A stretch of 64,000 nucleotides of DNA from Hymenobacter nitidus (lineage in GTDB: Bacteria > Bacteroidota > Bacteroidia > Cytophagales > Hymenobacteraceae): NCBI RefSeq assembly GCF_020447315.1, contig NZ_JAJADQ010000001.1, positions 62,001 to 126,000 of the forward strand, given 5' to 3'. The notes below the pieces were generated by a model. It was given only the letters and a program-made list of their open reading frames with translations. It searched no databases and was not told the origin of the DNA. Shown here piece after piece: positions 55,542-64,000 of this stretch (its first letter is position 1; each line of letters starts with the position of its first letter). Position numbers and translations under genes: made by a program.

Positions 55542-56351
55542 ATGCCGTTTTCCACCGACAAACTTCCGCCCTTCGAGCCTGCCTTGCGCGTATTGGTGGC
55601 CGATGACAACGAGCTGAACCAGCTTGTGGTCTGCCGGGCGCTGGAAGACTGGAACGTGGAAGTGGCCCTGGCCGACAATGGGCGCCAGGCCGTTGAGCTA
55701 GCCACGGCCCAGACCTTCGACGCTATTCTGATGGACGTGCAAATGCCGGAAATGGACGGCTACGAGGCTACCCGGCGGCTGCGCAGCTACCCGCCACTGC
55801 TCCGGCTGCCCATCATTGGCCTCACGGCTTCCGCCTCGGCCGAAGATCAGGCTTTGGCCTTAGCCGCCGGTATGAATGCCACGCTGGCCAAGCCTTTCGA
55901 CCCGGCCTTGCTGCACGCCAGCCTGGCTCATTACACCCGTCTTTCGGCGCAAGCCGCCACCCAGCAGCGGGAAACTACTGATCCGGATGCGCCCATCGAT
56001 GGCCGGATTGAGCCCGACTGGAGCATCCTGGAAGAACTAGCCTCCGGCAACGAAGCTTTTATTGCGCAAATAATTACCACCTTTCTGCAGCAGACGCCCG
56101 CGCTCTACCAGGAGCTGGTCCTGTCCTCCACCGATTCCGGCTCAGCTGTTCAGGCCCGGGTGGCCCACAAGCTGAAAGGGCAGGTTGTTTATTTCGGGGT
56201 GCCAGCGCTGCAGGTACAGCTCGAACAGCTCGAAAGGCCAGGCACTTCTCTCAGCGCCGCCAGCTCGCAGCAGTTAGTAGACAGTATTGGAAAGCATCTT
56301 TCATTGTTATATCCTCAGCTCGAGTCTCGTTTACAGCAGCATTCCTCCTAG
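55542..56351 (+). CDS. Response regulator receiver fused to Hpt domain
   Basis: A 269-residue signalling protein. The receiver domain has the acidic pair Asp21-Asp22, phospho-acceptor Asp65 (ILMDVQMPE) and Lys of AKPFD. The C-terminal histidine phosphotransfer domain has His209 in VAHKLKG. Such proteins relay phosphate from hybrid kinases to output regulators; a LytTR regulator follows 58 bp later and is a plausible partner. No kinase is nearby. Confidence 0.9.
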   Translation: MPFSTDKLPPFEPALRVLVADDNELNQLVVCRALEDWNVEVALADNGRQAVELATAQTFDAILMDVQMPEMDGYEATRRLRSYPPLLRLPIIGLTASASAEDQALALAAGMNATLAKPFDPALLHASLAHYTRLSAQAATQQRETTDPDAPIDGRIEPDWSILEELASGNEAFIAQIITTFLQQTPALYQELVLSSTDSGSAVQARVAHKLKGQVVYFGVPALQVQLEQLERPGTSLSAASSQQLVDSIGKHLSLLYPQLESRLQQHSS

Positions 56352-56396
56352 AAAGCTGCCTTAAAAGACATATATTCTAGTTCTCCGGTCTTCTTA

Positions 56397-56404
56397 TACC
56401 TTTG
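56397..56404 (+). promoter_or_regulatory. -7 box five bases before the LytTR start
   Basis: TACCTTTG fits the consensus and ends five bases before the ATG at 56410. TTC at 56375-56377, at the 19-bp spacing, may be a weak -33 element. Confidence 0.55.
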
Positions 56405-56409
56405 GCCTT

Positions 56410-57144
56410 ATGCCAGCACCCACCTCCTCCCTGCGTTGTCTCGTTGTCGACGACGATCCGCTATCCGTTCAGATTGTTACGAACTGCATTGCCAATACTC
56501 CTTTCCTGACGGCGGTCGGCACTTACGATAACGCCCTGGCCGCGTCCGAGCAGCTGCGTGCCCAGCCCGTCGACCTGCTGTTTCTCGACGTTGAGATGCC
56601 GCTCATGTCCGGGCTCGATCTGCTCAGCACCCTGCAGAATCCGCCCCTGGTTATCCTCATTACGAGCAGCAAGGAATACGCCGTTGAAGCTTTCGAGTAC
56701 GACGTAGTCGATTACTTGGTAAAGCCCATCAGCTACGCACGGTTTCTGAAAGCGGCCCAGAAAGCCCTCGAGCTGTTTGAGGATGCTACCGAATCTACTG
56801 CGCCTAGTACCGCCAACGCCGCCAGCACCGACCCCGATTTCACCTTCGTCAAGGTCGATACCAAGCTGGTTAAGGTGCTTTTCAACGATGTTTGCTACGT
56901 GGAAGCCCTTGGCGACTATGTCCACATTGTAATGCCCCACAGCAAGCTCATCGTCTACAGCACCATGAAGGCTGTCGAGGAGAAATTTCCCGGCGCCATG
57001 TTTGTGCGGGCTCACCGCTCTTTTATCGTCAATCTGAAGCGCGTGCAGGCCATCGAGGATAACACCATTACCATTGATAACAAGCAGATTCCCATCGGCC
57101 AGACCTACCTGCGGGAAGTTTTGCAGCGGCTAAACAAGTTTTAG
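56410..57144 (+). CDS. LytTR-family response regulator
   Basis: A 244-residue regulator. The receiver domain carries phospho-acceptor Asp60 (LLFLDVEMPLMSG) and Lys in YLVKPISYARF. The LytTR DNA-binding domain spans about residues 145-244 (FVKVDTKLVKVLFNDVCYVEALGDYVHI, FVRAHRSFIVNLKRVQAI). Cognate kinases of this class are usually membrane histidine kinases; none is in the window. It probably works downstream of the adjacent receiver-Hpt protein. Confidence 0.92.
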   Translation: MPAPTSSLRCLVVDDDPLSVQIVTNCIANTPFLTAVGTYDNALAASEQLRAQPVDLLFLDVEMPLMSGLDLLSTLQNPPLVILITSSKEYAVEAFEYDVVDYLVKPISYARFLKAAQKALELFEDATESTAPSTANAASTDPDFTFVKVDTKLVKVLFNDVCYVEALGDYVHIVMPHSKLIVYSTMKAVEEKFPGAMFVRAHRSFIVNLKRVQAIEDNTITIDNKQIPIGQTYLREVLQRLNKF

Positions 57145-57460: not shown

Positions 57461-58000
57461 ATGAAGAAACTTTCCTTCTTCTTTGTTGCTGCCGTCTTGG
57501 GTAGCGTCTTATCTGCCACCGCACAACAAGTCCCTGATCTGCGGACTCAGGCCGTCGAAAATACGCGCAAGCTTGCCCAGCAGATTGCCCTCGACGATGC
57601 GCGCACTACTCAAGTAAAACGGGCCACTTACGAACGGCTTGTTCAGGAAAACGACCTCAAGCAGATGTACAGCATCGACCCGGCTATGCTGCAAAGCAAG
57701 ATGGCCGTGGTAGATAAGGAATATGCCGAAAAGCTCAAAGGCATGCTGACTGAGGCGCAGTATCAGCGGTACGTAGCCCTCACGACTGTCTCAGCACCAG
57801 TGCCAGTACCAGCTACTACCGCCGTTGCCGTTGCGCCACCAGCAACTCCCGTAGCGGCTGTGGCAGCCCGGCCAGTATCGGCTCCCAAAGCCCCAGCTAA
57901 GAAGGTAGTCGTACCGAAGCCCAAGACTGTTTCTGGCACGCCGGCCAAAAAAGCATTGCCTAAAGCACACGCCAGCACGGCGGTGGGCAGCCGCTCCTAG
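57461..58000 (+). CDS. Small exported protein with Ala/Pro/Val-rich tail
   Basis: A 179-residue protein with a signal peptide (MKKLSFFFVAAVLGSVLSATAQ). A helical domain follows (residues about 25-105, LAQQIALDDARTTQVKRATYERLVQ...YAEKLKGMLTEAQYQRYVAL), resembling periplasmic Spy/DUF-type small helical proteins of Bacteroidota. The C-terminal third is a low-complexity Ala/Pro/Val/Lys tail. The upstream in-frame start (57410) would hide the signal peptide. Its TAG overlaps the stop of the convergent gene by two bases. Confidence 0.7.
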   Translation: MKKLSFFFVAAVLGSVLSATAQQVPDLRTQAVENTRKLAQQIALDDARTTQVKRATYERLVQENDLKQMYSIDPAMLQSKMAVVDKEYAEKLKGMLTEAQYQRYVALTTVSAPVPVPATTAVAVAPPATPVAAVAARPVSAPKAPAKKVVVPKPKTVSGTPAKKALPKAHASTAVGSRS

Positions 58001-59541
58001 GCCGATATCCGGGCCCGACGCGCTTGTTCTTCGGCTTTGTTGCTGGCCACATTAGCCCGCAGCATATCCAGCGTCATGCCCCATAAGGCCTCGTATGGGA
58101 TAATCTCGATTTCGGCATAGGCCTCCCCCGGCTGAGGGGCATCGTGCAGCCGGTTCAGCAAAGGCTGGCCTTTCTTGCTGCAGGCCTCCGGATCGAAGTT
58201 TTCCTTTACCGTCAGCACCAACAAGCGAAAAAACAGCTGGCTACGCAGCGTAGCCGACTCTCGTAAGTGGCGTTGCTCGTATTTGCGCAGGCTCTCAAGG
58301 CGGGCCAGCAGGTTTTCTACATCCTGGCGCCGCAAGAAGTTTAAGTACTGCAATATCAGAATAGCCACATTATAGCCCTGCTTGTCTCGGCTGTAGTCCG
58401 GTACGGTTTGCACAAACTGGTTGAAGTGCCGCAGCGTTAGGGGCGAATTCTCCGGCTGCAAAAAGTAGATATACGCTTTATATAAGTCCCAGCGCTGCCG
58501 GGCTGCCGCCCGCTGCTTGCGGAAGTAGGGATTTTTGTGGGCCATTTCCAGCAGTTGCTGCGCTTGGCTATACTGCCCGGCGTGCAAGGCCAGTAGTACG
58601 TAGTTTTCCATGAAAAAAAACCAGTTGCCGGAAGAAGGGTGAAAATCCTTCAGATATCCTTCCGACAGCTGTAGACCTTTGCTGGCCTGCTTGCTATGCA
58701 GGTAGGCATACGCCGTCATGTAGTTATTGAAACGGCTGTCAAACCGGCGCCGATTAATTTTTCCTTTTGCCCACAGCTTTTCGGTCGTGGTAGTCACTTT
58801 GATTATCTCCTCGTAATTACCCGTAAACTCCAGCAGGGTAAGCTGCGTCAGGTACAAGTAGTTGAACGTGATGTAGCTCTGGGCTTTTTCATGCAGCTGC
58901 TGCAGTTGCGCCAAGTAGCCCGGCAGTTCGTTCAATAAGGCACGCCTGGCACGCACCGTGTGCGCCTGGGCCATTTTGCTGCTCCAGTATATCTGTCCGG
59001 CTTCATCCTCCAACGCCATCAAATGCTGTAGTTGCTTTAGCTGCTTGCTTACGGATCTGTAGCGGGCGGGCTGGCGCAAATCCACATACAGCTTGCTGAG
59101 CAGGCGGGTGGCCATTACCGCATACTCCGTAAACTCTCCCTCGATAGCCTGCCGCAGGCACTTGCGCAAGAGCTGCTCGGCCAGCATGTACTCTCCTTCG
59201 CGGTACAGAATAGTGACCTGGTGGTATAACCCTATACACTGCAATTCGTATCTTCTCGACACCAAGTGACGCGGATCCGACTGTTCCAGGAAGTACAGAT
59301 GATTCAGAAGCTTTTGCTGCACCCGCGACTTTAGCTTGCGAAAAGACGTGTTGCTTGTGGTCGAAACCTTTCCGTACAGCGCTTTGGTTAGCTGCAACTG
59401 AGTACTATCTGGCTCGTTTTCAAGCAGCCGAATAAGCTTCAGGTCTTTGTTAAATGCCTTTTTAGCGGAAAAATCAAACAACGGTGACTCCTTGACGCGG
59501 CGGTCTGTCACAATTTTGGCCAGATTACTGAGTTTTTCCAT
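57997..59541 (-). CDS. Large helical protein of unknown function
   Basis: About 514 residues, soluble and almost entirely alpha-helical, with TPR-like helical pairs through most of its length (EGEYMLAEQLLRKCLRQAIEGEFTEYA, LLALHAGQYSQAQQLLEMAHKNPY). The N-terminal 100 residues (STQLQLTKALYGKVSTTSNTSFRKLKSRVQQKLLNHLYFLE) could be a DNA- or protein-binding helical module; no known domain is certain. The ATG at 59541 is preferred over 59568. It is divergent from the small-peptide gene and importer, across an AT-rich region with repeated TCACAA words. A sensor or regulator role is speculative. Confidence 0.65.
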   Translation of the reverse strand: MEKLSNLAKIVTDRRVKESPLFDFSAKKAFNKDLKLIRLLENEPDSTQLQLTKALYGKVSTTSNTSFRKLKSRVQQKLLNHLYFLEQSDPRHLVSRRYELQCIGLYHQVTILYREGEYMLAEQLLRKCLRQAIEGEFTEYAVMATRLLSKLYVDLRQPARYRSVSKQLKQLQHLMALEDEAGQIYWSSKMAQAHTVRARRALLNELPGYLAQLQQLHEKAQSYITFNYLYLTQLTLLEFTGNYEEIIKVTTTTEKLWAKGKINRRRFDSRFNNYMTAYAYLHSKQASKGLQLSEGYLKDFHPSSGNWFFFMENYVLLALHAGQYSQAQQLLEMAHKNPYFRKQRAAARQRWDLYKAYIYFLQPENSPLTLRHFNQFVQTVPDYSRDKQGYNVAILILQYLNFLRRQDVENLLARLESLRKYEQRHLRESATLRSQLFFRLLVLTVKENFDPEACSKKGQPLLNRLHDAPQPGEAYAEIEIIPYEALWGMTLDMLRANVASNKAEEQARRARISA

Positions 59542-59912
59542 GTCTAAATCGGCGTTGATACCTTGCACTTAGCATATGCAAGTTGAAAAAAGGAGAATAA
59601 AACCTGTCACAAATTGACAAATTATTTCCTTTATTTCTTGGCTCTAACCGTTGCACCTTTGTGATTGGGTAAATCTATCTTGTGGGAGTTCAAAAAGTCA
59701 CAATTGGAATACATTCACAACGCTTGAGTGCTCACGATATATCACAATGCGCTGCAACAATGATCTAGCGCTTAATCAATAGCTTAAAAATTCAATTTAC
59801 TATAAATTTAATCAAAGTCACTTTTGTCGAATATCTTTCCTTTACGCAGGCTTATATGTGAAGCAACTTTGTGTCATTCCAACTCCCGAACGACTCAACA
59901 TCTCAAAGCGCC
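59542..59912. promoter_or_regulatory. AT-rich divergent region with repeated TCACAA words
   Basis: The stretch is much more AT-rich than its surroundings. TGTCA-CAAAT-TGACA (59605-59619) is a perfect inverted repeat. TCACAA or its complement occurs at 59607, 59659 (complement), 59698, 59715 and 59742. TATCTTTC at 59832-59839 is one base off the -7 box and would give a leader of about 68 nt for the small ORF at 59913. Confidence 0.5.
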
Positions 59913-60065
59913 ATGTTAGAACTCATCGCCATTGCTCTGCTTCAGCTCGCCAGCTTCACAAATGCTCCTGAAGCTAACGACACCCGCGCCAACACCGATA
60001 AAACGGTTATTGTCGCAACACCTTCTGAAGCCGAACAAGGCGGCGGCGGCTGGGGCGGCGACTAA
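59913..60065 (+). CDS. 50-residue peptide with Gly/Trp tail (candidate precursor)
   Basis: The short ORF has a hydrophobic N-terminal segment (LELIAIALLQLASF), a polar middle (EANDTRANTDKT) and a tail ending GGGGWGGD. Its codon use matches the neighbours and it sits 90 bp before the peptide-importer genes. The frame is open back to a GTG at 59871, but the ATG at 59913 gives a better N-terminus. The size, hydrophobic start and glycine-rich end resemble secreted or modified peptide precursors; no modification enzyme is visible. It could also be a chance ORF or regulatory leader peptide. Confidence 0.5.
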   Translation: MLELIAIALLQLASFTNAPEANDTRANTDKTVIVATPSEAEQGGGGWGGD

Positions 60066-60154
60066 GCGACTCGCACCTGCGGCCTGTGGCGTTCGGCTTC
60101 CTGTAGAATGTTAATTAACTTGCCCGGCACGCGTATCCGAGCAGTAACCTCTTC

Positions 60155-61891
60155 ATGAAGCACCTTGTACTTGGAATTCTGGCTGTGATGAGCGGCGCAT
60201 TTTGCGCCTGCTCATCCCGCCAGGAAGTAAATAAGTCGGCCATTCGTATTCGCTGGGAGCGGGACCCCGAAAATCTGGATCCTCTGGTACTGCCCAACGA
60301 AAACGCGCTTGAAGCTGCCAACCTACTCTATTCCAGTCTCCTGTCTGTCGACCCCAGCAAGCAGCAGTTTACTCCCTGCTTAGCTGAAGCGTTGCCCACG
60401 GTAGAGCAAACAGACTCGCTTACTCTGCTTACATACCGCATCCGCCCCGAAGCAGTATGGGATAATGGCCAGCCCGTGCTGGCACAGGATGTGGCATTTA
60501 CCTTGAAGGTGATGAACTGCCCCGGGCTCCCCACGGAGAGCAATCAGGCGCAGTGGGGCTTTATCCGGGATATCCGCCTGGATTCTACTGATTCCCGTCG
60601 CTTCACGCTTGTTTGTTCGGGTCGGTCGCCGGAATACGCATGGTCTTCTGGCGATTATATTATTCTACCAGAATATCCGCTGGATCCTAAGGGCCAACTG
60701 CGCCCTTTCTCACTCACCGCGCTACGCGCCGATACTGCCGCAGATCAACATCATGCGGCTATTGGCGCTTTTGTGCGTCGGTACAAGCAGGCACAGCTTG
60801 ACCACCACCCGGAGCGCCTGCCCGGCTGTGGCCCTTATACCCTAGAAGCCTGGGAAACCAATCGTTTTATTTCCTTTAAGCGCAAGCCCAAGTGGTGGGC
60901 CGATCAGCTTCGGTCGGAATTGTTGCCCCTACAGGCTCACCCGGCAAAGCTGAATTACCAGATTATTCCGGATGCGGCCACGGCTGTGTTGGCTCTGCGT
61001 CGTGGGGATCTGGAAGTGTATCCGGGAATGCCCGCCAAAGAGTTTCAGCGTCTTCGGCAAGACAAGGACAACGGCGCCACGCTGCAGTTCTACACAGCCG
61101 ATTCGTATAAAATGATAACGGCTTGCTTTAACATCAGACGCCCGGCTTTACAGGACAAAATGACGCGGCAGGCTCTATCCCATCTGTTCAACGTTCCGGC
61201 TTTAATCCAAGCCACTCAGCAGGGCTTGGCCTTTCCCAGCGTCGGGTTGATACGGCCAAACTCGGGCCCAGGCTATAATGATAGCCTGCCCCTACCCACC
61301 TATGACCCTAATACGGCCCTTGCCTTGCTGCAAAAAGCGGGTTGGCAACGCCAGACGGATGGCGGATGGCTGCGCCGCGCCGCTACCGGAGCGCCAGAGC
61401 GTCTTCGTCTCACGATTAGCTACCGCACCACCGACCCGGCCTTTGAAACCATAGCCCTGCAACTGCGCAGCGCGGCGGCACAGCTGGGCATTCCAGTGCA
61501 GCCGCAGCCCCTGGAGTCGTCACTGTTTCGGGAAAAGCTACGCGCCGGCACAGTCGACATGTATCTGTTTACGATTACCGGCAACCCGTTTGTCTACAAT
61601 TTTGCCCCCATTCTGCACACCAAAAGCATAGGCACGGGTAACCATACCGGATTTGGAACTGCCGCCAGCGACCAGCTGATTGAGGCCATTGCCGCCGAGA
61701 AGCAGGAGGCACGTCAGGTGCAGCTGCTGCGCCGCTTCCAACGCCTGTTGCACGACGAAAAGCCGCTAACGGTACTGTTCTTTTTACGCTCCCGCGTGGC
61801 GGCTTCTGCTCAGCTTACGAATTTGCAGGTAACTGGGCTGCGGCCAGGCTACATGGCCACGGCTATACAGGCCAAACCAGCCGCGCAGTAG
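60155..61891 (+). CDS. Peptide-type ABC transporter substrate-binding lipoprotein
   Basis: A 578-residue SBP_bac_5 (OppA/DppA) family protein with signal and lipobox ending in Cys19. Typical features are RIRWERDPENLDPLVLPNENALEAANLLYSSLL, WDNGQPVLAQDVAFTLKVM and the C-terminal YLFTITGNPFVYNFAPILHT. It captures short peptides or similar solutes and presents them to the permeases encoded directly downstream (3-bp gap). The ligand is unknown. Confidence 0.9.
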   Translation: MKHLVLGILAVMSGAFCACSSRQEVNKSAIRIRWERDPENLDPLVLPNENALEAANLLYSSLLSVDPSKQQFTPCLAEALPTVEQTDSLTLLTYRIRPEAVWDNGQPVLAQDVAFTLKVMNCPGLPTESNQAQWGFIRDIRLDSTDSRRFTLVCSGRSPEYAWSSGDYIILPEYPLDPKGQLRPFSLTALRADTAADQHHAAIGAFVRRYKQAQLDHHPERLPGCGPYTLEAWETNRFISFKRKPKWWADQLRSELLPLQAHPAKLNYQIIPDAATAVLALRRGDLEVYPGMPAKEFQRLRQDKDNGATLQFYTADSYKMITACFNIRRPALQDKMTRQALSHLFNVPALIQATQQGLAFPSVGLIRPNSGPGYNDSLPLPTYDPNTALALLQKAGWQRQTDGGWLRRAATGAPERLRLTISYRTTDPAFETIALQLRSAAAQLGIPVQPQPLESSLFREKLRAGTVDMYLFTITGNPFVYNFAPILHTKSIGTGNHTGFGTAASDQLIEAIAAEKQEARQVQLLRRFQRLLHDEKPLTVLFFLRSRVAASAQLTNLQVTGLRPGYMATAIQAKPAAQ

Positions 61892-61894
61892 GGC

Positions 61895-62959
61895 ATGAGG
61901 CGGTTTCTGTTAGCTCGTCTGGCCCGCGCAGTACCGGCAGCCTGGGGAATAATTTCCATCATTTTTCTGCTCAGCCGGTCGTTATCGGCCACTCAGACCG
62001 TTTCGGAAGAGCTGCAAAGCAGCATTGCGGGCCATACCGCCACGCCTAAGCAAATCCGAACTACGGAGCGCCTGATTCGCAGACGCCTAGGCCTTGATTT
62101 GCCCCTGTTTTACGTGACGCCGGCCGCGCAGTCTACCTCGGGAGCTTTGGCTTGGCGCTGGCAGTGGCAGGGGTTTCAGAACCAGTACCACCGCTGGCTC
62201 CTTGGCGTGTTGCGGGGCGACTTGGGCTACTCTTTTCGGGATGGGCGGCCCGTGACAACCCAGCTCCGGCTGGCCCTGGGCGCGACCCTGCCACTTACGG
62301 CCGCTGCTTTTCTGGTTACCAGCGTCTTGGCCCGGTGGCTGACTCTGTTTCTTGCCAACCACCGCGGGCTTCGTACGGCCCTGTTATCGGCCTTGCACGT
62401 CCTGCACGCGCTGCCCCTCTTTGTTATTGCCCTGCTGCTGCTGCTGCTGCTGGCCAACCCCGACGCGCTGTCCTGGTTCCCGGCCTATGGTTTAGCTGAC
62501 TTTGGTGATAACACCTCCTGGAGCATACAGGTATTGCAGTATCTGCACCACTTGGCGCTTCCCTTGTTCAGCTTGGTGTTGGTGAGTCTTCCTTCGTTGG
62601 TCGTGCAGCTCGACTATGCTCTTGCCCGCGAGCTGCAAGCCGACTATGTAGTGACTGCCCGTGCCAAGGGTCTTCCCCAGCGGCTGGTTGTCCGCCATCA
62701 TGCGTTGCGCAATGCCCTTTTGCCCGCCATTACTTATTTAACTGATCTGCTGCCCGCGCTGGTAGCTGGTGCTGTTGTGGTGGAGCTGATTTTTGCGCTG
62801 CCGGGCATGGGCCGCCTGCTGGCTGAAGCGGCAGCGGCCCGGGATTTCCCCATTCTGCTGGGGGCGGTACTACTCATTGCCGGAACCCGCTTAGGCGCGC
62901 AAATTCTGGCTGACTGGCTCTATTACCAGGCTGACCCACGAATTCGGCTGGAGGTGTGA
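61895..62959 (+). CDS. ABC transporter permease, OppB/DppB-like
   Basis: A 354-residue inner-membrane permease with an N-terminal helix, a periplasmic loop and five further helices. The EAA-type loop (YVVTARAKGLPQRLVVRHHALRNALLPAITY) contacts the ATPase. It is preceded by the binding protein and overlaps the next permease gene by 4 bp (GTGA), so they form one operon. Confidence 0.92.
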   Translation: MRRFLLARLARAVPAAWGIISIIFLLSRSLSATQTVSEELQSSIAGHTATPKQIRTTERLIRRRLGLDLPLFYVTPAAQSTSGALAWRWQWQGFQNQYHRWLLGVLRGDLGYSFRDGRPVTTQLRLALGATLPLTAAAFLVTSVLARWLTLFLANHRGLRTALLSALHVLHALPLFVIALLLLLLLANPDALSWFPAYGLADFGDNTSWSIQVLQYLHHLALPLFSLVLVSLPSLVVQLDYALARELQADYVVTARAKGLPQRLVVRHHALRNALLPAITYLTDLLPALVAGAVVVELIFALPGMGRLLAEAAAARDFPILLGAVLLIAGTRLGAQILADWLYYQADPRIRLEV

Positions 62960-63930
62960 AGCAGCTAAGCCGATACGTTTCTCTGGTGTGGCTGTTGGTG
63001 CTACTGCTGCTAAGTGTATGCGCGGAAATCCTGCCCCTACCCTACGCCCCCGATACACCTGACCTGGACGCCATTGCTGCTGCTCCCTTTTCCGGCGCGC
63101 ATTGGCTGGGCACCGACTCGGCGGGCCGTGACGTATTGGCCGGGCTGATTTTTGGCGCGCGTACGGCCCTCCTGATTAGTCTGCCGGCTACGATAGTATC
63201 AGCCTTGCTGGGCACATTCCTTGGCAGTATAGCTGGCTACTGGGGCAACCAACGTCTACGGCTGTCAGCTGTAGTCATGGTTACTCTGGGTCTCCTGGGG
63301 CTAGCGGTAGCGGTACTGAATGCCAGCCTGGGAGTATATCTCAGCATAGGCGCCGTGGCATTCGGCGGGCTGGTAGTGGTGAGGCGAATTTCCGGAAAAT
63401 TGTCTACCACCCACCCGGTGCCGCTGGACGCCGCGGTGCTGCTGCTGATTGCCCTGTTGACGGCAATTCCCCGCCTCGTGCTGGTGTTGGCTTTAGCCGC
63501 TGTTCAGCCCCCTTCTGCGCCTATGCTGCTGATAACCTTGGCCCTGATTTACTGGCCCTCGACGGCGCAGCTGGCCCGGGCCGAAATGCAGCGCATCCGC
63601 CAGCTGCCCTACATGGAAGCAGCACGGGCGCTGGGGCTACGCGACTGGCAGCTTATTCTGCGCCATGCACTACCGGCAGTATGGAAGGTCGTAGGGGCGG
63701 CGCTGCCGCTCAGCGTAGCAACACTTATCGGGCTGGAAACCACCCTTTCTTTCTTGGGAGTAGGCCTACCGCCCCAAACGGCCAGCTGGGGACGCACGCT
63801 AGCCAGTGCCCGGCAGGAGCCCACTGCCTGGTGGCTCATTGTGATGCCCGGCACCGTACTCGTGTGTACGATGCTGGCCCTTCGCCAACTTGCCTTGACT
63901 TCAATCAAAAAAGAGAAACGCGGCGAATAG
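62956..63930 (+). CDS. ABC transporter permease, OppC/DppC-like
   Basis: A 324-residue permease with the second-subunit pattern: N-terminal helix, HWLGTDSAGRDVLAGLIFGARTALLISLPATI, and the EAA loop YMEAARALGLRDWQLILRHALPAV followed by LETTLSFLGVGLPPQTASWGRTLASAR. The GTG start overlaps the previous stop as GTGA. The ATP-binding subunit is not in the window; either it lies beyond the right edge or the system uses an ATPase encoded elsewhere. Confidence 0.92.
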   Translation: MKQLSRYVSLVWLLVLLLLSVCAEILPLPYAPDTPDLDAIAAAPFSGAHWLGTDSAGRDVLAGLIFGARTALLISLPATIVSALLGTFLGSIAGYWGNQRLRLSAVVMVTLGLLGLAVAVLNASLGVYLSIGAVAFGGLVVVRRISGKLSTTHPVPLDAAVLLLIALLTAIPRLVLVLALAAVQPPSAPMLLITLALIYWPSTAQLARAEMQRIRQLPYMEAARALGLRDWQLILRHALPAVWKVVGAALPLSVATLIGLETTLSFLGVGLPPQTASWGRTLASARQEPTAWWLIVMPGTVLVCTMLALRQLALTSIKKEKRGE

Positions 63931-64000
63931 ATCTGTCACAAATGAGGCACTATTCGGCGCTTATCCTTTTCATTGTGCAGCAGTACCGTACCAGGCCAAC
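63931..64000. other. Window end, non-coding so far
   Basis: CTGTCACAAAT at 63933-63943 repeats exactly the 11 bases at 59604-59614 in the region before the importer. A GTG at 63975 might start another gene, but too little sequence is left to judge. Confidence 0.4.

Follow-up and report, generated by a model that had tools for sequence, protein, structure and literature searches.

Pheromones of the RRNPP(A) systems of Bacillota (Rap-Phr, NprR-NprX, PlcR-PapR, Rgg-SHP/ComR-ComS, PrgX and AimR-AimP) re-enter the cell via an oligopeptide permease. RRNPP systems have been described for Firmicutes, and the available part of one survey covered only Firmicutes and viruses (PMC10075063); signalling by imported peptides through cytoplasmic receptors of the tetratricopeptide repeat (TPR) type has been described for Bacillota (PMC9765709). 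The closest known precursor design, judged from excerpts of the source, is that of the tandem Phr propeptides, the Phr3T and Phr105 families, which are read by Rap receptors (Felipe-Ruiz 2024, PMC11343458). In the same excerpts, duplicated Phr3T-family propeptides always contain pseudo-repeats, the C-terminal pheromone never being copied identically within the propeptide; the Phr105 family has identical repeats in 6 and pseudo-repeats in 33 (PMC11343458). A comparable set of genes lies at the right end of a 64-kb stretch of the Hymenobacter nitidus genome (contig NZ_JAJADQ010000001.1, positions 62,001 to 126,000; here called the window), where a divergent gene pair, encoding a putative intracellular peptide receptor and a short peptide precursor, is followed by the genes of a peptide importer. 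This locus probably constitutes an autocrine or quorum-type peptide signalling circuit, RRNPP-like in design, with multi-copy precursors in relatives and an importer of its own.

Gene content, precursor design and co-occurrence

The receptor gene (57997..59541, minus strand) encodes 514 amino acids from a conserved start at 59541, predicted to form a TPR-like superhelix, helical throughout, with a small helical region at the N-terminus. Divergent from it, the precursor gene (59913..60065, plus strand) encodes 50 amino acids, comprising a hydrophobic leader (MLELIAIALLQLASF), a linker and a single core, GGGGWGGD (60039..60062, plus strand), the putative mature pheromone region. Downstream on the plus strand are genes for a family-5 peptide-binding lipoprotein resembling OppA/DppA (60155..61891; SBP_bac_5, expect value (E) 2e-51), an OppB/DppB-type permease (61895..62959; BPD_transp_1, E 7.5e-27) and an OppC/DppC-type permease (62956..63930; BPD_transp_1, E 5.2e-19), the permease genes overlapping by 4 bases and having Opp4B and Opp4C, respectively, as their best NCBIfam matches, both below cut-off. 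A family-5 binding protein with two permeases makes this an importer of the Opp/Dpp type, and the N-terminus of the binding protein (GAFC|ACSS) looks by eye like a lipobox. A preliminary description of the window had reported a short open reading frame (ORF) ending in GGGGWGGD between a divergent 514-residue helical protein and an Opp/Dpp-type binding protein with two permeases, and every one of these parts is present.

Searches for receptor relatives found 495, of which the best 80 were kept, corresponding to 78 distinct loci (labelled with L-numbers); counts on these loci describe the closest relatives of the receptor rather than a sample of all 495, and the named relatives among them belong to Hymenobacter, Solirubrum or a metagenome-assembled genome of Hymenobacteraceae. 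The peptide ORF, on whose conservation the proposed circuit depended, was kept in 77 of the 78 (the exception being L090), beginning on the opposite strand at a distance of 347-383 nt from the receptor start and running off the contig end in four of the 77. Because it occupies the same place in so many related loci, it is no chance ORF. The binding protein and both permeases adjoin the peptide gene in 69 of the 74 loci whose contigs reach far enough to judge.

Across the 77 precursors, the commonest leader residues are M-L-E/N-L-L/I-A-I-A-L-L/F-Q, and the leader is hydrophobic, with lysine or arginine among its first 18 residues in three precursors; its ratio of nonsynonymous to synonymous divergence (pN/pS) is 0.33 in pairs less than 25% different. 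The precursors contain 1-18 Trp-centred core units each, 324 in total, with glycine at W-4 in 99% and at W-1 in 98% of the units. The precursor of the window has one core only; most relatives have a tail in which one core is repeated in tandem. In L083, L100, L104 and L112 the contigs break off within the repeat array of the peptide gene, and because some contigs end there, copy numbers in draft genomes may be underestimates.

Selection on the cores was assessed between units of the same gene in the 33 genes with at least four units (row L102 left out), where pS was 0.470 and pN 0.033, a ratio of 0.07. The other two forward frames of the core arrays gave control ratios of 4.9 and 1.5; the reverse-strand frame rc1 also gave a low ratio (0.10), which is read as the mirror of the true frame and not as a reverse gene. 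Silent sites drift and the amino acids of the units stay, therefore selection holds the units of one precursor alike. The segment W-4..W+2 is identical among units in 54 of the 60 precursors with at least two units, and 74 different core octamers occur across species. Judging from these sequences, uniformity within a precursor would be expected if every unit is released as the same signal.

The binding protein of the importer and the receptor are also absent together. The receptor is present in 22 of 24 other genomes sampled from the genus and was not found in G004 and G016, which have only a 26%-identical paralogue of the binding protein, while three control genomes keep the orthologue (a comparison of binding proteins only). 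In a draw of 291 genomes of the same order, 82 had the receptor (E<=1e-10) and 53 the binding protein (E<=1e-30), all 53 being among the 82. Neither of the two refuting outcomes named in the preliminary description thus came about: the peptide is conserved, and in the genomes sampled the binding protein never turned up where the receptor was missing. Both results support the Firmicutes-like circuit suggested there, in which the peptide would act as a signal. In 69 complete loci, distances between receptors correlated with distances between cores once the distance of either permease had been allowed for (partial r 0.32 and 0.36), a result reached by 0 of 500 permutations in each case.

Receptor model, promoter modules and proposed circuit

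Neither the receptor nor the peptide belongs to any Pfam or NCBIfam family above cut-off, and a test for sequence homology between the receptor and the known RRNPP receptor families found none, the Pfam matches being a sub-threshold TPR and other weak ones. The AlphaFold2 model of the receptor, built from 44 sequences, has a mean predicted local distance difference test score (pLDDT) of 87.1 and a predicted template modelling score of 0.80. Comparison of the model with the PDB by VIA-align ranked Rap and NprR first: the first nine rows are all Rap or NprR, matching within model residues 138-502 with Z from 18.0 to 16.2, headed by 8rst, the Rap of phi3T with its pheromone (Z 18.0, root-mean-square deviation 4.3, 299 residues aligned), and ending in NprR with NprX (Z 16.2), AimR rows being at 14.6 and lower. 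This match is good without being conclusive, because helical repeats by nature give high scores, the typical best being about 14. On the model, the receptor has the predicted TPR-like ligand-binding superhelix of the RRNPP kind. The N-terminal 96 residues, modelled alone, gave a weak model (pLDDT 72.6) with helices at 32-42, 48-56 and 61-88, and several helix-turn-helix proteins are among its low-Z matches (best DesR, Z 5.1), suggesting a possible helix-turn-helix at about residues 32-84.

The spacer between receptor and peptide gene (59542-59912) had been described as AT-rich, with repeated TCACAA words. It has four of the eight copies on the plus strand of the window, a number reached in none of 2000 mononucleotide shuffles of the spacer. 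An 11-base sequence said to recur after the last permease was confirmed (CTGTCACAAAT, at 59604 and again at 63933). The claimed inverted repeat fared less well: TGTCACAAATTGACA, containing inverted TGTCA/TGACA, is present at 59605, but TGTCA-N5-TGACA does not recur in the relatives' sequences compared at this position and was rejected as the conserved element. What recurs instead is a directional module, GTCAC-N-CCTTT-N-AnnTTTG, present twice in the spacer. The first promoter-like copy, P1 (GTCACAAAT..TTTCCTTT..ACCTTTG; 59606..59661, plus strand), points towards the peptide gene, and the second, P2 (59817..59871, plus strand), lies directly upstream of it and ends in AnnTTTG, presumably a -7 element of the Bacteroidota type.

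The strict module occurs twice in the 5.5-Mb genome, each time at the locus, and its reversed control has no match. Over the 78 loci, P1 matches it in 26, P2 in 34 and either in 49; 1.01 Mb of related loci has 67 matches, against 0 for the reversed pattern. A shorter pattern gave 48 matches over 23 loci and its control seven, and of the 14 matches to a second pattern, spread over 9 of 23 genomes, 12 lie at the locus and two elsewhere, its control having seven. The promoter module is nearly locus-specific, and no wider regulon was found with the strict module in the genome itself or with the second pattern in the 23 genomes. A third copy of the module follows the last permease at contig position 126113 (L031:10113), just outside the window, and has equivalents in L032-L051; among 16 loci inspected, 10 have the gene of a protein of about 73 amino acids (FQTIDGELVPY..ALRSGTAVLIGGLLVG) downstream of it, a protein found in 12 of 29 genomes and not in that of H. 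nitidus. Genome G009 has four matches to the module.

No ATPase subunits were found for the importer among the ORFs of the locus and the Pfam-scanned neighbours. The whole genome encodes two SBP_bac_5 proteins and has five BPD_transp_1 matches, and both of its oligo_HPY matches fall within one 655-amino-acid open frame on contig C5, which from its sequence looks like a fused OppDF-type ATPase. In the circuit proposed here, the precursor would be transcribed from P2 and exported by its hydrophobic leader, and proteases outside the cytoplasm (extracellular or periplasmic) would free the Gly/Trp core, which this precursor carries once and those of relatives up to 18 times. The peptide would then be taken back up by the linked OppA-OppB-OppC importer, driven by the fused OppDF-type ATPase encoded elsewhere in the genome, and would bind the TPR groove of the receptor in the cytoplasm. 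The receptor would in turn control the divergent intergenic region with P1 and P2 and, in many relatives, the third module after the last permease.

Nine neighbouring proteins were identified by Pfam (E<=0.001): an RmlD-like protein, cyclophilin, DUF2238, porphobilinogen deaminase, DNA polymerase III delta, a sugar nucleotidyltransferase, Ham1 and two response regulators. A receiver-Hpt protein and a LytTR response regulator, encoded near the receptor at 55542-57144, keep this position in many Hymenobacter loci.

Spread, objections and alternative explanations

Outside the genus, 12 loci were fetched from four other genera of the family, and every one has the receptor, the peptide (read by eye) and the importer, L180 among them being the same locus as L103. 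In a class-level draw of 395 genomes, receptor relatives (E<=1e-20) occurred in 31, including the H. nitidus genome itself and three others of its genus. Elsewhere in the order, and in further orders of the class, receptor relatives are often accompanied by a divergent ORF whose leader is similar and whose tail differs. A fixed criterion for leader-type ORFs, which recovers 64 of the 78 in the closest-relative set, identified them outside the genus (same-family loci included) in 29 of 71 upstream regions; the opposite strands gave 5 of 71, and dinucleotide shuffles 34 of 1420. These systems may well form a Bacteroidia-wide family of intracellular-receptor pheromone systems with no detectable sequence kinship to RRNPP, in which a charge-poor leader (approximately M-x-[ED]-LL-x-A-x-LL-x-L) would carry signals particular to each lineage. 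In Hymenobacter these would take the form of tandem Gly/Trp cores, mostly identical, in most of the other sampled Hymenobacteraceae that of a single W core, and in other orders that of different tails or even of peptide genes copied in tandem, so that one Gram-negative genus alone would have dozens of private dialects.

Some relatives depart from the usual layout. L226 and L230, from another family of the class, have three and two tandem copies, respectively, of the whole peptide gene (MATLLAILLSLNLITS...IIWETNEK) in place of internal repeats. L052 (G011 contig 289) has two receptors, one beside a binding protein with no intervening peptide and the other with a divergent peptide. Hymenobacter sp. 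BRD128 has a plasmid-borne receptor relative of 40% identity (L232, NZ_CP053909.1 62156-63688), whose gene adjoins that of an integrase, with a TraM-type gene not far away.

A number of observations weigh against a signalling circuit of this kind or its wide distribution. In the fold comparison, the row after Rap and NprR is the proteasome Rpn6 at Z 15.9, tied with the ninth row; in the Foldseek ranking, eukaryotic TPR proteins come first, with low TM-scores, and none of the 50 matches listed is an RRNPP receptor; and hmmsearch of PDB sequences with a 44-row receptor profile returned no match at E<=10. DNA binding by the receptor is no more than possible, because the N-terminal model is weak and its matches reach only Z<=5.1, and the second module pattern has no match in 14 of the 23 genomes. 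The leader, with so few lysines and arginines, does not have the positive n-region typical of a Sec signal, and no gene for a processing protease, an exporter or an ATPase was seen among the ORFs and Pfam-scanned neighbours of the locus. The spacers between core units are constrained too, though less than the units (pN/pS 0.23). Receptor distance also correlates with leader distance (partial r 0.20 and 0.23, 0/500), as does that of the binding protein with the core (0.27 and 0.31), so the correlation between receptor and core may partly be residual phylogeny.

Linkage has exceptions too. In 29 of the 82 receptor-bearing genomes of the order, the search for the binding protein at E<=1e-30 had no match. 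Beyond the family the two genes are as a rule not adjacent: of eight such genomes with both, they lie side by side only in G079 and within about 3 kb in G096. Among the closest loci, the importer is missing from its usual position in L116, L121, L132 and L138, which do have receptor and peptide (on the L121 contig a binding protein lies beside a second receptor), and L090 has neither peptide nor importer there. L170, L171, L173 and L175, from another genus, have a second receptor without a peptide of its own. No leader-type ORF was found in 42 of the 71 regions outside the genus, nor in the 900 bases upstream of the L232 plasmid receptor, and at least two of the 29 matches (L191 and L198) look accidental.

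The foremost alternative is that the peptide is an antimicrobial, either a multi-core ribosomally synthesised and post-translationally modified peptide (RiPP) or a bacteriocin-like precursor, with the receptor as its regulator or immunity protein and the importer recycling it. Tandem identical cores are common among RiPP precursors, Trp-Gly cores are similar to the substrates of radical-SAM crosslinking enzymes, and the leader is suitably hydrophobic. However, no modification or export gene is present among the nine Pfam-scanned neighbours (E<=0.001), the closest receptor fold is that of Rap and NprR, and a binding-protein importer beside the producer's own peptide would better suit signalling, making this explanation unlikely.

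It is also quite improbable that the ORF encodes a small membrane peptide acting inside the producer cell, perhaps with the receptor or the permeases as its target, and never secreted or re-imported. The absence of positive charge in the leader agrees with such a role, as does the existence in other families of receptor-peptide pairs without importer genes nearby, but up to 18 mostly identical core units, and the importer's steady place beside the peptide gene in the closest loci, would be left unexplained.

OppA, OppB and OppC are common nutrient transporters and the family matches obtained here are broad, so an ordinary nutrient peptide importer could stand beside an unrelated regulator and a small ORF that merely couples translation. 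This is very improbable given the absence of the importer's binding protein together with the receptor, the 53/53 co-occurrence, the selection on core amino acids and the cores that are identical within species and diverse between them. A type I toxin-like hydrophobic peptide with an unrelated neighbour, which the short, hydrophobic N-terminus and the tandem gene copies of L226 and L230 might suggest, is scarcely credible, as conservation extends to the Gly/Trp tail no less than to the leader and the link to receptor and importer is steady.

Comparison with known peptide systems

Peptide signalling of this sort has so far been described mainly in Gram-positive bacteria, and dozens of relatives of H. 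nitidus carry the gene set. If the signalling circuit proposed here is real, a Bacteroidota circuit with an importer inside the locus and cores differing between species would imply that such signalling either is much older or was invented convergently by bacteria with two membranes, and the question is directly testable because many species repeat the candidate signal several times in one gene. The preliminary description knew of no equivalent in Bacteroidota, and no description of such a peptide system in that phylum was present among the matches listed in the open-access literature.

The yeast alpha-factor precursor also holds repeated peptides, and the alpha-factor receptor is a membrane receptor. 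Repeated peptides are held more generally by fungal precursors processed by Kex2, according to the part of the source available (PMC7329392); these share with the present precursors the presence of several peptides in one product and differ in being eukaryotic and processed in the secretory pathway. Within the Bacteroidota, N-acyl-cyclolysines have been described as a signal (Linares-Otoya 2025, as cited in excerpts of a 2026 review, PMC13419125). They resemble the proposed pheromone in being a chemical signal of the same phylum, and differ from it in being small molecules rather than ribosomal peptides.

The likeness to the RRNPP(A) systems of Bacillota is closer, in that a short precursor gene adjoins a TPR-like receptor gene (here in 77/78 loci), the receptor model is nearest to Rap and NprR, and an oligopeptide permease would take part, its genes being linked to the other two here. 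The differences are that no sequence similarity was found, that the locus occurs in another phylum, in cells with an outer membrane, that the importer genes lie inside the locus, that the leader is nearly without lysine and arginine and the cores are rich in glycine and tryptophan, and that the receptor, of about 514 amino acids, has an N-terminal region of its own. The system would work like RRNPP, and kinship by descent is not claimed because the test for sequence homology found none. With the Phr3T and Phr105 propeptides, as excerpted from their source, the present precursors share the presence of several copies of a pheromone, here a putative one, in one product, and the phi3T Rap with its pheromone (8rst) tops the fold list of the receptor; they differ in that most multi-unit precursors (54/60) keep W-4..W+2 identical, in having up to 18 units, and in belonging to a Gram-negative genus.

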